Source: Herpetosiphon aurantiacus DSM 785
GTDB taxonomy: Bacteria > Chloroflexota > Chloroflexia > Chloroflexales > Herpetosiphonaceae
DNA length: 64,000 nucleotides
Assembly (NCBI GenBank): GCA_000018565.1
Contig: CP000875.1
Coordinates: 4,293,199 to 4,357,198 of the forward strand
Reading direction: 5' to 3'
Both the position numbers and the translations under genes were made by a program. Below the pieces are notes generated by a model that was not told the origin of the DNA, ran no database searches, and saw only the letters and a program-made list of their open reading frames with translations. How positions within the stretch are numbered: position 1 is the stretch's first letter; each line of letters begins with the position of its first letter. Below, piece after piece: positions 18,334-24,786 of this stretch.

Positions 18334-18416
18334 AGAACATAGAGCATAGAAAAAGAACCAGGCATATGACTTGTATCAAGGTATAGATAGGTTATAGCTA
18401 CTATGCTCTGTGTTCT
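18334..18416. repeat. Inverted pair of the AACATAGAG intergenic repeat
   Basis: AGAACATAGAGCATAG at 18334-18349 pairs with CTATGCTCTGTGTTCT at 18401-18416 (15 of 16). Similar short strings occur at 8056-8081, 24895-24930, 60010-60080 and 63384-63420. The right arm extends the minC reading frame upstream and should not be taken as coding. Confidence 0.7.
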
Positions 18417-18453
18417 ATGCTCTTATTTTCGTTTTCTTGACGGAGACGGTATA

Positions 18454-19128
18454 ATGCGCGATATGGAAGAGCGCATCACGTTAAAAGGCAGCCGTGACGG
18501 GCTGCGCTTGATTTTACACCCCACCGCAGCGTGGGCAGAAGTCCTTGAAGCCCTGCGCAAGCAACTAGCCCAAGGACCATCGTTTTATCATGGCGCAAAA
18601 TTATTGATCGATGTTGGTGAGCGTTCGATCACCGATGTGGAGCTACAGGCGATCTTGGCGATCATGGCCGAACATGATATTGAGCCAGCCGCATTAATTA
18701 CCATCGCACCAACCAATCGGACTACTGGTCGGCAGGCTGGCGTAGAAACCCGCCATCCCGACAGCCTACGGTCTACTCCTCCACCCGTCGTGCAAGGCGA
18801 AGGCTTATTTTTATGGCGCACCGTGCGTTCTGGTCAGGCAATTCGGCATCAAGGCCATATCGTTGTGGTCGGCGATGTCAATGCAGGAGCCGAAATTAGT
18901 GCTCACGGCAGTGTCATCATTTGGGGGCGCTTACGCGGCTCCGTCCATGCAGGTGTTGGCGGCAATCAACAGGCAATTGTCTGTGCGCTCGAATTGCGCC
19001 CAACCCTCTTGCGGATCGCCGATAACCTTGCCCGCACACCTGATAATCATCGCCCAACTGGCCCTGAACAAGCCAGCCTTGATGGCGACAACATTGTAGT
19101 AGTACCATGGGATGCCCCACGCCGCTAG
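18454..19128 (+). CDS. minC: Septum site-determining protein MinC
   Basis: MinC blocks FtsZ ring formation away from midcell when held at the membrane by MinD. The 224-residue protein has an N-terminal domain (1-100, beginning ITLKGSRDGLRLIL) and the C-terminal beta-helix domain. The latter has RSGQAIRHQGHIVVVGDVN, GAEISAHGSVIIWGRLRGSVHAG and ALELRPTLLRIA, all hallmark motifs. The start is the ATG at 18454, preceded by GGAGACGG. An upstream ATG at 18403 lies within an intergenic repeat and adds residues foreign to the family. It is followed directly by minD and minE. Confidence 0.95.
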   Translation: MRDMEERITLKGSRDGLRLILHPTAAWAEVLEALRKQLAQGPSFYHGAKLLIDVGERSITDVELQAILAIMAEHDIEPAALITIAPTNRTTGRQAGVETRHPDSLRSTPPPVVQGEGLFLWRTVRSGQAIRHQGHIVVVGDVNAGAEISAHGSVIIWGRLRGSVHAGVGGNQQAIVCALELRPTLLRIADNLARTPDNHRPTGPEQASLDGDNIVVVPWDAPRR

Positions 19129-19148
19129 TGGGTCTTTGAGGATCATGT

Positions 19149-19949
<801 letters not shown>

Positions 19950-19994
19950 AATGGCGCGGTTGAGCCATCTTTATCTTCCACATGGAGCGGATGT

Positions 19995-20258
19995 ATGGGT
20001 CTTTTAGATAATCTTTTTGGTCGCAAGCAACAGAACAGTTCGTCGGTTGCAAAAGAGCGTTTATTGACGGTTTTAGTCCATGATCGCGTGCATCTCACGC
20101 CTCACGATATGGAAGAGATGAAACGTGAAATTATTGCCGTGATCGAGCGTTACGTTGAAGTAACCAACCCAGAGGCCATTGAAGTAACCTTGACCCGTGG
20201 CGAAGCTGCCGACCACCTCAAGGCCGATATTCCCCTTGGTCGCTCGCGTCAACAATAA
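19995..20258 (+). CDS. minE: Cell division topological specificity factor MinE
   Basis: An 87-residue MinE that stimulates MinD ATPase and drives its release from the membrane. The N-terminal amphipathic helix MGLLDNLFGRK is the membrane-targeting part; the segment AKERLLTVLVHDRV contacts MinD, and the rest forms the dimer domain with EVTLTRG near the end. GGAG lies seven bases before the ATG at 19995. It completes a standard minC-minD-minE order. Confidence 0.95.
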   Translation: MGLLDNLFGRKQQNSSSVAKERLLTVLVHDRVHLTPHDMEEMKREIIAVIERYVEVTNPEAIEVTLTRGEAADHLKADIPLGRSRQQ

Positions 20259-20284: not shown

Positions 20285-21496
20285 ATGCACGTTCAGCCAA
20301 CTAGTCCGATTCGTTTCTCACCTCGCGCAAAGTTTGTAACAGTCCTTTCGATTGTTATTATTAGCCTGTACTTGGTCAACCAAGCTTGGCATATTATGAT
20401 CCCCTTTATTTGGGCGATCATCACGGCCTATATTTTTAATCCAGTTGTTACCTGGATGCAACGGCGTACCAAAACCCCCCGCTTCTGGTGGGTGATTGTG
20501 CTGTATATCATTGGTTTTACGCTGTTAACTTTGCTTGTGAGTAACGTCGTGCCACTGATTACCTCGCAGATTAACGATTTGGCCCAAACCATTCCTATAT
20601 GGCTTGATGATGCTAAAATCTATGTTGAGCAGCATCAAGCGTTGACCATTCGTGGGGTTGAAATTGTTAATCTGCGTGAAGCTGAACGCGAAATCTCGGG
20701 GGCAATTGCGGCGTTTGCCAAAGCCCTGCCTGGTATCGCCCCGCTGTTTCTGTTTGGGCTAGCCGAAGGCTTTATTTTGCTTTTGGTTTATTTCGTCGTA
20801 ACGTTTTATTTATTGCTCCAAGCCGAAACCATCCCCAACAATTTCTATCGCTTAATTCCCGAACGCCATCGTGATGAAATTCGTCAATTGATTGGTTCGA
20901 TCGATCGGGTGCTCTCAGCCTACATTCGCGGTCAGTTTTTGCTGATTATCATTATGTCGGTGTTGAGTTACATTGCCCTATCAATTTTGCAAGTCAAATA
21001 TGCCTTGATTATCGCCATCGCCACCGGCTTCTTGGAAATTATCCCAATCATCGGGCCGTACATGGCCACCGCCATCGCCGCTTTGGTAGGCTTTTTCCAA
21101 GGCACAACCCCATTTGGCTGGGAGCCTTGGGTATTAGCGTTGGTAATTATTGCCGTCTATTTTGCCCTGCGCCAATTCGAAGATCACTTTATTATTCCAA
21201 ATTTGGTCGGACATATCGTCAATGTGCATCCGGTCTTTGTGATCTTTGCAATTTTGGCGGGGGGAGCGGTAGCCGGCGGCTTAGGTTTACTCATATCGAT
21301 CCCGATTGCCGCAGTTGCTCGCATCATTCTTTCATATCTGCATGGCAAGCTTGTCGATTCGCCCAACCCGCAGGCCGATTTGGTCGAACAAGAGGGCAAA
21401 TTGCTTGAAAACCATATAGTGGCTGAGCGTCGCGAAAGTCGGCGCAACCGCCGCGAAGCCAAAAAACAGGTCGAAGGCAGCGATCTCAAACCCTAA
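20285..21496 (+). CDS. AI-2E family membrane permease
   Basis: A 403-residue polytopic membrane protein with about eight hydrophobic segments and the family layout. There is an N-terminal helix pair with IPFIWAIITAYIFNPVV, a periplasmic stretch around residues 90-150, then GFLEIIPIIGPYMATAIAAL and HIVNVHPVFVIFAILAGG near the end. A charged, Arg-rich cytoplasmic tail closes the protein. Members export small molecules or act as Na+/H+ antiporters; the AI-2 link is proven for few. GGAGGA precedes the ATG, 26 bases after minE, so it is probably the last gene of the min operon. A strong terminator follows. Confidence 0.9.
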   Translation: MHVQPTSPIRFSPRAKFVTVLSIVIISLYLVNQAWHIMIPFIWAIITAYIFNPVVTWMQRRTKTPRFWWVIVLYIIGFTLLTLLVSNVVPLITSQINDLAQTIPIWLDDAKIYVEQHQALTIRGVEIVNLREAEREISGAIAAFAKALPGIAPLFLFGLAEGFILLLVYFVVTFYLLLQAETIPNNFYRLIPERHRDEIRQLIGSIDRVLSAYIRGQFLLIIIMSVLSYIALSILQVKYALIIAIATGFLEIIPIIGPYMATAIAALVGFFQGTTPFGWEPWVLALVIIAVYFALRQFEDHFIIPNLVGHIVNVHPVFVIFAILAGGAVAGGLGLLISIPIAAVARIILSYLHGKLVDSPNPQADLVEQEGKLLENHIVAERRESRRNRREAKKQVEGSDLKP

Positions 21497-21520
21497 ACTT
21501 TAAATTTAACCAATGATTTA

Positions 21521-21549
21521 AGCCACAGGCCCAAACCTGTGGCTTTTTT
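21521..21549 (+). terminator. Rho-independent terminator of the min operon
   Basis: AGCCACAGG pairs with CCTGTGGCT across a six-base loop, followed by TTTTTT. It closes the transcript that ends with the AI-2E permease. Confidence 0.92.
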
Positions 21550-21552
21550 GTA

Positions 21553-21622
21553 TTGACAAAACGCCACATATTATGCTAAACATACATATATTATTAAACA
21601 TATGTATATTGGAGAACATATG
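21553..21622 (+). promoter_or_regulatory. Promoter with three 18-bp-phased AACATA repeats
   Basis: TTGACA at 21553-21558 is a consensus -35; no ideal -10 is seen at the usual distance. Downstream, AAACATA at 21578, AAACATA at 21596 and GAACATA at 21614 recur with an exact 18-base period. ATACATAT at 21582-21589 and ATATGTAT at 21600-21607 form an inverted pair. The third unit overlaps the ATG of the next gene. The arrangement looks like an operator array covering promoter and start, possibly for the encoded ribbon-helix-helix-like segment. Confidence 0.55.
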
Positions 21623-22294
21623 ACATTTCCCCAAACCTTTGAACTAGCCACAACCGACAAACTAACGGGCCTTTTTACGCCTGATTACTTTCGCTTTTTG
21701 GTGCGCGAACAAGTGTTGCCAGCCATGCACGAACGGGTTGAACCCTTGAGCATGTTTGTGTTGGATATCGATTATTTTCTAGCCTTGAATACTGAATCAG
21801 GCCGTGAATGTGGCGATGCAGTGTTAGTTGCCGTGGCCCAAGTGCTCAAGCGGGTGTTGCCAGAGCAAGCAATGCTCTCGCGCTACAGTGGCGATGAGTT
21901 TGCCGGAGCGTTGCCTGAACTACGAATCGACGACGCATTTTCGTTGCTCGAAGAAGTGCGCCGTCAAGTGTTGGCAATTCAGCTTGATTGCCTTGGCGAA
22001 ATTAAATTAAGCTGTTCGATCGGCTTGGCTGGCTATCCAGGCCATGGCCGCGATGAAGTTGAGTTGGTGCGTCAGGCCGACGAAGCGCTGTATCACGCCA
22101 AAACAACAGGCCGCAACAAAATTGCCCTGCCCGTCGCCGATAGCCGTATGATCACCAAAACCAGCTACTACACTGCCACCCAACTCGAACGTTTAGCCCA
22201 ACTTGCCAAAGCCCTCAAACGCAACGAAGCTAGTTTGCTGCGCGAAGCGCTCGACGATGTGATCAAAAAATACAACGATCGCTTGAAATCCTAA
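21620..22294 (+). CDS. GGDEF protein with C-terminal ribbon-helix-helix-like domain
   Basis: A 224-residue protein. Residues 10-170 form a GGDEF domain with DKLTGLF, metal-site residues in VLDIDYF (D49, D51), the signature SGDEF at 90-94 in place of GGDEF, and SCSIGLAGYP and AKTTGRNK. The inhibitory RxxD site is absent. Residues 177-224 (ITKTSYYTATQLERLAQLA, then ASLLREALDDVIKKY) follow the strand-helix-helix plan of CopG/Arc-type DNA-binding domains. No sensor domain is present. The ATG at 21620 follows GGAGA. If both halves work, it could link c-di-GMP synthesis or sensing to gene control. The RHH call is from pattern only. Confidence 0.78.
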   Translation: MTFPQTFELATTDKLTGLFTPDYFRFLVREQVLPAMHERVEPLSMFVLDIDYFLALNTESGRECGDAVLVAVAQVLKRVLPEQAMLSRYSGDEFAGALPELRIDDAFSLLEEVRRQVLAIQLDCLGEIKLSCSIGLAGYPGHGRDEVELVRQADEALYHAKTTGRNKIALPVADSRMITKTSYYTATQLERLAQLAKALKRNEASLLREALDDVIKKYNDRLKS

Positions 22295-22301
22295 ACAAGG
22301 C

Positions 22302-22330
22302 TTGACACTTTGAAACATTTGTTCTATATT
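22302..22330 (+). promoter_or_regulatory. Sigma70-type promoter
   Basis: TTGACA at 22302-22307 and TATATT at 22325-22330 are separated by 17 bases, a near-consensus housekeeping promoter about 70 bases before the Sak4-like gene. Confidence 0.8.
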
Positions 22331-22400
22331 TTTTATGTAGATTGACGGATACGGGCCAGCAATGGCTATGGGTAACCGAGTTCATGAAAGGAATCGCACA

Positions 22401-23312
22401 ATGTTTCAGTCGCTAGACCAACTTGAAACAGGCAGTTTATTTATTTTGACAGGGCAAGCAGGCGCAGGCAAATCGCACTTAGCCGCCAGCACCCGCCGCA
22501 GTGGCACGGTCTGGATTTTGGATACCGAGGGCGCTGCCAAGAATCTTTTGGGCAAACCTGGGGTGCACAAATCGATTCAAGCGGTGCAAACGCTCTCGCT
22601 GCAACAACTTTTGGCAGCCATGCAAGAGATTCAACGGCTTGGCAAAAGTGGCGATACAGTGGTGCTCGATTCAGTTTCTAAGGTGCTGCAAGCGATGCGT
22701 GCCCATGCACAACAACGGGCTGGCGCTGAAACCGACCGCAAAACCCAAATAGAGTTTGATGAATATGCCTCCTTCAATCGCAACCTGCAAGCGATTTATA
22801 CTGGCCTGACCGAGCTAAAACAACATGGCTTTCATGTGATTATCATCGGCCACTTGGCCAAACAATATAGCGAACAAAGCGAAGATCGCAATCATGCTGA
22901 TGTGGGCTTGCGGGTGCTGGCCGACGAACATATTACCTACGAGGCCGATGCAATTATTCTCGTCGAGCGTGATGGCGATCAACGCCAGATGCGACCAATT
23001 ATCAAGCCACCGCGGCCTTTGCATCTCAAATTAGGCGCAAATTATCCCGCCAAACTTGCGACGCTCTACCCTGAACTGGCACTGGACGAGGCTTTTGGCA
23101 ATAGTTCCGAGCGCACTGGCCGCCCCGTCGATGCTAGCGAAGCCGAACGGCGTTTCTTTGCCCGCTATGCCTCAGTCGTTGGCGGTAACAATTGGAACGC
23201 CGTCCAACGCTATCTTGGCCGCAAAGATAAAAAACCCAGCACAATCGAAGGCTGGATTAGCGCTGCCGAACAGGTGCGCCAAGCCCCAAACGACCAAGCC
23301 ATGGCCGCCTAA
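22401..23312 (+). CDS. Sak4/RecA-like P-loop ATPase
   Basis: A 303-residue RecA-fold ATPase resembling the phage Sak4 single-strand annealing group. Walker A is GQAGAGKS at 18-25; ILDTEGAAKNL, a Walker B TVVLDSVSKVLQ and VIIIGHLAKQ follow. The last 80 residues (after about 225) carry a separate small domain with an ERRFFARYASVVGG stretch. The ATG at 22401 is preceded by AAAGGA; an upstream in-frame ATG adds an unlikely tail. Sak4 proteins normally sit in phage replication or recombination modules, but no phage genes are nearby. It has its own promoter and terminator and may be a domesticated recombination factor. Confidence 0.8.
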   Translation: MFQSLDQLETGSLFILTGQAGAGKSHLAASTRRSGTVWILDTEGAAKNLLGKPGVHKSIQAVQTLSLQQLLAAMQEIQRLGKSGDTVVLDSVSKVLQAMRAHAQQRAGAETDRKTQIEFDEYASFNRNLQAIYTGLTELKQHGFHVIIIGHLAKQYSEQSEDRNHADVGLRVLADEHITYEADAIILVERDGDQRQMRPIIKPPRPLHLKLGANYPAKLATLYPELALDEAFGNSSERTGRPVDASEAERRFFARYASVVGGNNWNAVQRYLGRKDKKPSTIEGWISAAEQVRQAPNDQAMAA

Positions 23313-23475: not shown

Positions 23476-24786
23476 TTTAAGGGCGGACAGGTTGGGGAAT
23501 GGGTATTCATCAGTGTTAGGGGATGGCCGTCCCGAGCCGACCACCCCGCGTCACCGTCGTGGCCCACCGTTCGTGCAGCGCCGTTCCCGCCAACGATAGT
23601 CGCGCTCCCAGCGCTGGCTGCGTTCCCGTCCACAGCCAGCGCAGCACCCCATACCGCCCCAACCGAAACAGACTTTCTCGTGCCGCCCATGGGCGGCGCG
23701 GGCTGGGGCGATCCCCGCGTTCGGCCAGCACCGCCTGCGCCTCCGCCGTCCCGACCAGCAGCACCAGCACCGTCGCGATCGCCATGCCCAGCACCAAGGC
23801 CTCCTGCGTCGTCTGGCTCCGCGACTGGCTCGCCTCCCATTGCCAGCCCGCCGTTTTCCAATCGCGAAACAGGGCCTCAATCGCAGAGCGCCGCCCATAC
23901 GCCTGCCGAATCGCCCCAATGCCCTCCAGATTGCTCACCAGCAGTAACGGCTCGTGACACGTCGCCTCCCATGCGGCCACCACTGTCACCGTTCGCCAGC
24001 CCGCCTTCTTGAAGGCATGGCCCCGCCGCACCACGCGATGGCCTCGCGTGACCAGCGTGCGGATCATGGTTTCGGTGTGCCCCCGCAGTTGGATGCGGGT
24101 ATGGCCTTGGACGCGCACGACCCAGCCCCAGCCGTAGGCCGCGACCTGATCGGTGAAGGCGGGGCAGCCAAAAGCACGGTCGGCCACGACGACGACGGAC
24201 ATAGCATTGGGCAGCACCTGCTGCACGCGCTCCAGCAGGGTGGCAACATCGGTCCAGAAGGCGGTGGCGCGGCGGGTATAGCCGGGATGGAGCACCCAGG
24301 CAAGCGGAATGGCGCGACCGTGATACCAGAGGGCGGCGGTGAGCAGGGTCCAGCGGTCGGTGTGGGTGGTTTCATCGATGATGACGGTGACGGATTCAGT
24401 GGGTGCGATGTGGAGGGTGGTGGCGAGGATGGCGCGATGGAGCGACCACGACAGCTGGGAATCCCGATAGGTGCGGCGCAGTCGGCGTTCGTGACTGGCG
24501 GCGTGGGCAGCGGTGGACAGTCCAAGGGCACAGCCCCAGGCCACGACGCGCGTGGTGATGGACGGCATGAGCAGGATGCTGACGAGCCAATCGGTGAGCC
24601 GACGGGCAGTCCAGGGCGAGAGGGTGGGCACGGCGGTGCGCAGGATGGTGTTGATCCAGTGGGCAAGGGCTGGTATACTCGGCATACGACCTCGGTTTTG
24701 GGATGGGTTTGGTTTCGTCACCACCCAGTATACCAACCCGAGGTCGTTGTGTGAACCCATGGTGTGCGTCCCTGTCCGCCCTTAAA
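23476..24786 (-). mobile_element. IS4-like insertion sequence, intact
   Basis: The 1311-bp element has perfect 16-bp terminal inverted repeats (TTTAAGGGCGGACAGG at 23476-23491 and its complement at 24771-24786), a 10-bp target duplication CACTGCGGCG, and a single transposase gene filling most of its length. It is clearly richer in GC than the surrounding genome, which suggests recent arrival. It sits inside a dispersed palindrome and disrupts no gene. An inner inverted pair, CGACCTCGG at 24687-24695 and CCGAGGTCG at 24738-24746, flanks the transposase leader and may control its expression. Confidence 0.93.
23516..24685 (-). CDS. IS4-like DDE transposase
   Basis: A 389-residue transposase. 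The DDE residues are visible in order: D in VTVIIDETTH, D in VVVADRAFGCP, and E in RRSAIEALFRDWK, the last matching the YREK-like signature of the IS4 group (R, E and K kept). A helical N-terminal DNA-binding part precedes the core. The ATG at 24685 was preferred because an upstream in-frame ATG would extend the protein through the inner inverted repeat near the right end of the element. The reading frame is complete, so the element may still be able to move. The opposite strand also carries long open frames caused by the high GC content. Confidence 0.92.
   Translation of the reverse strand: MPSIPALAHWINTILRTAVPTLSPWTARRLTDWLVSILLMPSITTRVVAWGCALGLSTAAHAASHERRLRRTYRDSQLSWSLHRAILATTLHIAPTESVTVIIDETTHTDRWTLLTAALWYHGRAIPLAWVLHPGYTRRATAFWTDVATLLERVQQVLPNAMSVVVVADRAFGCPAFTDQVAAYGWGWVVRVQGHTRIQLRGHTETMIRTLVTRGHRVVRRGHAFKKAGWRTVTVVAAWEATCHEPLLLVSNLEGIGAIRQAYGRRSAIEALFRDWKTAGWQWEASQSRSQTTQEALVLGMAIATVLVLLVGTAEAQAVLAERGDRPSPRRPWAARESLFRLGRYGVLRWLWTGTQPALGARLSLAGTALHERWATTVTRGGRLGTAIP

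Follow-up and report, generated by a model that had tools for sequence, protein, structure and literature searches.

The window analysed here is a stretch of 64,000 nucleotides from Herpetosiphon aurantiacus DSM 785, whose genome comprises 6,785,430 bp in three contigs. Between the gene of an AI-2E family transporter and that of an AAA_24 ATPase (Pfam), the window carries a gene that encodes an N-terminal GGDEF domain and a C-terminal ribbon-helix-helix (RHH) domain in a single polypeptide. The features of the locus are as follows (clades are defined below).

21520..21545, + strand: terminator hairpin of the upstream AI-2E transporter gene; the insertion point lies directly after it
21550..22297, no strand: segment missing from five other genomes of Herpetosiphon; boundaries accurate to within a few nucleotides
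21553..21558, + strand: −35 element TTGACA; TTGAC stands ahead of the sites in all clade-1 homologues read
21578..21589, + strand: predicted operator copy A, AAACATACATAT, a degenerate copy that differs from ATACATATGTAT at 3 positions and lies 18 nt upstream of copy B
21596..21607, + strand: predicted operator copy B, AAACATATGTAT, the main palindrome, 1 mismatch; the same 12-mer occurs in L050
21602, + strand: in-frame ATG upstream of 21620, without an obvious ribosome-binding site (open reading frame 21602/21620-22294)
21611..21614, + strand: Shine-Dalgarno sequence GGAG, preceding the ATG at 21620
21614..21625, + strand: possible third copy (C), GAACATATGACA; a weak candidate that overlaps with the start codon, proposed from the period of 18 only
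21620..22294, + strand: GGDEF-RHH gene, 224 amino acids, start ATG 21620; homologues share the start Met
21647..22120, + strand: GGDEF domain, residues 10-167 (Pfam PF00990 and AF2 model)
21887..21901, + strand: SGDEF signature, residues 90-94; PEQA replaces RxxD just upstream
22148..22276, + strand: RHH domain, residues 177-219, a MITKTSYYT ribbon followed by two helices (Pfam RHH_3)

The protein was assigned a length of 224 residues because GGAG at 21611-21614 lies ahead of the ATG at 21620. The segment that carries the gene appears as an insert of about 747 bp, consisting of one gene, its promoter and its candidate operator. In the genomes of the five other Herpetosiphon species tested, the genes on either side of the insert are direct neighbours, and the terminator T-tract runs almost straight into the AAA_24 promoter. 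No target duplication or terminal repeat was seen at the insert. The simplest reading of this arrangement would be one gain in Herpetosiphon. As to the surroundings, minC, minD and minE lie consecutively upstream (18403-20255, + strand). The AAA_24 ATPase gene (22404-23309, + strand) shows a weak match to the defence-associated mad8 model, and the DNA of this ATPase gene is conserved throughout the Herpetosiphon genomes searched. In addition, the GGDEF-RHH gene is followed, at a distance of about 1.2 kb, by an insertion sequence with a DDE transposase gene (Pfam DDE_Tnp_1; 23519-24760, − strand).

The N-terminal half was identified as a GGDEF domain both by profile (residues 10-167, Pfam PF00990, E 2.2e-28) and by the AF2 model, in which this part has a pLDDT mostly above 90 and aligns to 3ign with a Z of 25.4 and an rmsd of 1.8 over 165 residues. 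After a short linker, the C-terminal segment DSRMITKTSYYTATQLERLAQLAKALKRNEASLLREALDDVIKKY matches Pfam RHH_3 (PF12651) above the curated cut-off, residues 181-219 scoring 22.7 bits in the whole protein against a cut-off of 21.6, and the C-terminus alone scoring 26.1 bits. All nine homologous C-termini tested, each on its own, were also found to match RHH_3. The AF2 monomer model contains helices at residues 186-199 and 203-223 with a pLDDT of about 77, and the strand/ribbon region (residues 175-183) is below 50. A search of solved structures with the RHH profile gave chance matches only, and the matches of the fold search were GGDEF chains, so that its coverage is that of the GGDEF part only. 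The initial annotation had described a GGDEF domain and a strand-helix-helix segment of CopG/Arc type in one polypeptide. This description is borne out by the Pfam profiles for both domains; residues 177-224 are indeed the C-terminal segment in the 224-residue numbering, and the C-terminus, on whose fold the claim had been made to depend, is an RHH domain by profile.

Is the fusion conserved? The search for it in Chloroflexota that had been proposed with the initial annotation recovered a real, conserved family of this phylum. A profile search detected the fusion in 10 of the 400 genomes sampled from Chloroflexota, in 7 of the 158 from the window's class, and in 19 of the 28 from one other family. 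One close-relative scan of 84,980 species, which is also the coverage for phyla beyond Chloroflexota, gave four full-length homologues, 59-69% identical over residues 1-224. In a tree of GGDEF domains, all fused domains fall on one side of a single branch (92/91), with the ordinary GGDEF domains from relatives on the other, which fits a single origin of the fusion. Two clades were distinguished: clade 1, comprising the window, L050-L053 and L056, with L103-L106 placed by sequence, and clade 2, comprising family f37 and L057. For the closest pairs, dN/dS of the GGDEF domain is about 0.10-0.16, and dN of the RHH domain is about 0, with almost no replacement changes, indicating that both halves are maintained under purifying selection. 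Conservation in the closest clade is higher for the RHH segment than for the GGDEF domain, and the putative DNA-facing ribbon of the RHH segment is almost invariant throughout clade 1. The homologues lie in differing gene contexts, and L050 and L053, the two clade-1 loci that were read completely, showed no conserved neighbour gene. No relative was found on viral contigs, nor was any relative of the RHH part found on plasmids and phages. Whole-protein plasmid matches were discarded as relatives, being matches to the GGDEF domain only at less than 60% identity. The label Candidatus Gracilibacteria attached to L050 was likewise set aside as apparently wrong, an identical sequence sitting in a genome placed within the window's order. 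Two additional weak matches of the profile among the 400 Chloroflexota genomes are RHH-like frames of only about 100 amino acids that lack a GGDEF domain. Short stand-alone RHH-like proteins were noted at L080 and L081 (around 1465-1790); these are weak profile matches and not fusions.

The GGDEF domain retains its GDE core and its metal and guanine ligands. D49, N57, D66 and G91-D92-E93 are invariant in the 13 aligned members and, with equivalence to PleD numbering assigned by motif, correspond to D327, N335, D344 and the GDE core including E370, residues reported to be essential or to bind metal or base (PMC7288161). The K442 equivalent is also invariant across these 13 members. The first glycine of the GGDEF motif is serine in the window protein, confirming the SGDEF variant noted earlier at residues 90-94; SGDEF is compatible with activity in at least one enzyme, ECA3270, although another enzyme was inactivated by the change to serine (PMC3974145). 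All fusions preserve the GDE core, and 21 of 24 have a GGDEF/GGDEL motif.

The inhibitory site had been described as lost in the initial annotation, and PEQA was indeed found to occupy the place of RxxD. None of the 24 fusions scored has RxxD, as against all 28 ordinary GGDEF domains compared, a control set that favours canonical domains, since it was found by similarity to the window protein and a clean motif was required by pattern. The position of K332, which has been described as a transition-state stabiliser (PMC12943098) and for which a main-chain contact is described in published text (PMC7288161), is occupied by L, M, V, H, Y or Q in 23 of the 24 fusions, and by L in the window protein. 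The R446 equivalent is kept in clade 1 and missing from most clade-2 members; the window protein keeps both K442 and R446. Alone among the fusions scored, L057, at the base of clade 2, has retained both K and D of the canonical active site, and it may show the ancestral state. Because the K332 position is changed in 23 of 24 fusions and the R446 equivalent is absent from most of clade 2, catalysis may be weak or lost. Overall, the residues appear to permit nucleotide binding and possibly synthesis; c-di-GMP synthesis is probably retained in the window's clade, although we are less sure of this.

Upstream of the gene, the word AACATA recurs at 21579, 21597 and 21615, that is, three times with a period of exactly 18 nt, as had been reported. 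The third copy is the weakest because it overlaps with the start codon (ACAT then ATG). Genome-wide, there are four exact AACATA-N12-AACATA pairs, two of which are the window's own array. Comparison of homologues showed the underlying unit to be the palindrome ATACATATGTAT, which is more informative than the AACATA words. In the clade-1 loci first found, a TTGAC(A/G) −35 element precedes the sites, whose best centres are near +15, +33 or +50 counted from this element. Pairs of sites exactly 18 nt apart were observed in the window, L052, L053 and L056. The spacing does recur, but the notion of a phased array in the helical sense has to be abandoned, as 18 nt does not correspond to an integral number of helical turns. 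Motif words counted over the upstream 100 nt of 12 homologues total 48, compared with a shuffled mean of 8.5 and a shuffle maximum of 21. Moreover, all four homologues not used to define the motif (L103-L106) carry ATACATATGTAT with 0, 0, 1 and 2 mismatches, at most 50 nt upstream of the ATG and behind TTGAC. The conserved upstream repeat that the initial annotation had called for is therefore present in homologues. In the window alone, one site with at most 2 mismatches is not significant, and the significance of the motif comes from the homologues rather than from the single-window count. Clade-2 promoters contain a different, loosely defined AT-rich motif, GATATAT / ATATATGT, in a similar place and usually behind TTGAC. 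A search of 21400-22450 against Rfam returned nothing.

The strong sites are nearly private to the gene. Genome-wide searches were made for ATACATATGTAT with at most 1 mismatch and hence cover strong sites only. The L052 and L056 genomes (one of 3.2 Mb, one of 3.6 Mb) have two sites each, all of them ahead of the GGDEF-RHH gene only, and the 5.8 Mb L050 genome has one site, in front of the GGDEF-RHH gene. The L053 genome has no site at this threshold, its own copy having 2 mismatches, and the sole such site in the Oscillochloris genome lies elsewhere than at the GGDEF-RHH gene, because the gene's own copies there have 2 mismatches. Over its 6.8 Mb, the window's genome contains six such sites, of which one is at the GGDEF-RHH gene. 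A wider regulon in this genome was considered and rejected, the other five sites showing no convincing pattern (one lies in a CRISPR-like array and one on a plasmid). A CRISPR-like array with the repeat GTTCCATAAATAAAGAATCCCTACAAGGGATTAAAAC was recorded in the window's genome at L064, around 1440-1600. A protein with such a target set would mostly regulate itself. The near-private strong site makes a role in controlling other genes look less likely than that of an effector or enzyme which restrains its own expression.

Judged from sequence comparison, autoregulation, most simply autorepression, appears well supported, because the palindrome recurs in four of four out-of-sample homologues and is nearly unique in the genomes searched. 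The initial reading of the protein as a regulator of its own promoter that responds to GTP or c-di-GMP is thus sustained in its first part, by the RHH domain, the conserved fusion and the presence of operator-like sites in the promoter of the gene itself; the ligand response is weighed below. Mechanistically, the C-terminal RHH domain would dimerise and bind the palindromic ATACATATGTAT between the −35 element and the start codon, and the bound RHH dimers would block transcription of the gene itself. The GGDEF domain would be the effector, binding a guanine nucleotide and probably acting as a diguanylate cyclase of weak or conditional activity. Synthesis requires paired GGDEF domains, and dimerisation through the RHH domain could also bring about this pairing. 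The amount of enzyme may be limited by transcriptional self-repression in place of product inhibition, given that no member scored has the product-inhibition site. If the only strong sites are the gene's own, another output is needed, which points to the GGDEF domain. Overall, we consider it probable that this is a self-repressing GGDEF protein whose RHH domain blocks its own promoter and whose GGDEF domain is the working part. The best reading appears to be a diguanylate cyclase (or guanine-nucleotide binder) limited by self-repression and not by product inhibition.

The second part of the initial reading amounts to a ligand-controlled autorepressor, in which a catalytically dead GGDEF domain senses GTP, c-di-GMP or another guanine nucleotide and thereby alters operator binding. 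The loss of K332 from 23 of 24 fusions and of R446 from most of clade 2, with the guanine and metal ligands staying, would suit such a sensor, as would the release of DNA by the RHH protein CdbA on binding c-di-GMP (PMC7156744). However, retention of the GDE core in all fusions and of GGDEF/GGDEL in 21 of 24 is not the usual pattern for a domain that could decay freely, the canonical K and D are present in L057, and with a nearly private operator a pure sensor would control nothing else recognisable. We therefore regard this reading as tentative and the less probable one, although it is the principal rival. Rather unlikely, and proposed by analogy, is a one-protein loop in which an operator-bound RHH tetramer would pair the GGDEF domains, so that operator DNA would control c-di-GMP synthesis and the c-di-GMP made, or GTP bound, would release the protein from its promoter, in the manner of CdbA and c-di-GMP. 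If this were true, a single chain of 224 residues would combine enzyme, sensor and repressor, and one gene could carry all three functions, together with the operator, from place to place.

The remaining explanations concern the RHH domain and its sites. A CdbA-like chromosome-associated protein, whose RHH domain binds many weak sites of which the promoter array is merely the strongest, would escape genome searches that covered strong sites only, and CdbA itself binds more than 500 sites with a minor effect on transcription (PMC7156744). Specific, spaced palindromes at the same promoter position and almost absent elsewhere make this explanation very improbable. An RHH domain that does no more than dimerise the GGDEF domain, with the promoter sites serving some other regulator, also seems highly improbable. 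GGDEF catalysis does require a dimer, and RHH domains are obligately dimeric, but the sites accompany the gene in differing contexts and in a one-gene insertion, and clade 1 shows almost no variation in the ribbon that putatively faces the DNA. Finally, the single-protein RHH_3 score is barely above the cut-off, the region is AT-rich, and the lone window site with at most 2 mismatches could be taken for chance. That both the RHH match and the repeats are spurious is nevertheless hardly credible, given the nine of nine homologues matching RHH_3, the out-of-sample recovery of the motif in four of four, and the near-uniqueness of the sites in the genomes searched.

How does the predicted self-repressing GGDEF protein compare with known systems? 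No description of a GGDEF-RHH fusion was found in a literature search among open-licence papers. CopG, Arc and RHH antitoxins are small domains that act at palindromic or repeated sites over their own promoters. The window protein resembles them in its small RHH_3-type domain and in the palindromic or repeated candidate sites over its own promoter, whereas CopG, Arc and RHH antitoxins stand alone or pair with a toxin. To our knowledge, no RHH autorepressor of this type carries a GGDEF domain. AmrZ of Pseudomonas is likewise an RHH protein tied to c-di-GMP control, but it is a separate protein acting on other genes, and it did not bind c-di-GMP (PMC7156744). CdbA of Myxococcus xanthus, in which c-di-GMP and DNA binding compete, provides a precedent for a link between an RHH domain and c-di-GMP; it binds its own cdbAB promoter, and its homologues have been reported only in Myxococcales (PMC7156744). 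Compared by description, the window protein is like CdbA/CdbB in placing an RHH domain in a c-di-GMP context (PMC7156744). CdbA is a lone RHH domain without GGDEF and with more than 500 sites, whereas the RHH domain here is fused to GGDEF and its strong sites are nearly private. With the degenerate GGDEF receptors PopA, PelD and FimX (PMC3974145), the window protein shares a possible loss of catalysis; receptors of this type may bind c-di-GMP at RxxD, whereas the window protein lacks RxxD and retains the GDE core. The window protein has the same fold as PleD, WspR, DgcR and DosC (Z about 23-25) and keeps their metal, guanine and GDE residues, with the R446 equivalent kept in clade 1. Unlike these four enzymes, it lacks RxxD, K332 and a sensor domain, has a C-terminal domain of DNA-binding type, and has serine for the first glycine of the motif. 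Control of GGDEF proteins normally comes from sensor domains and from binding of the product to RxxD. The whole family described here has lost the product-inhibition site and gained a domain of DNA-binding type together with its own conserved candidate operator, which suggests a different means of restraining a second-messenger enzyme.
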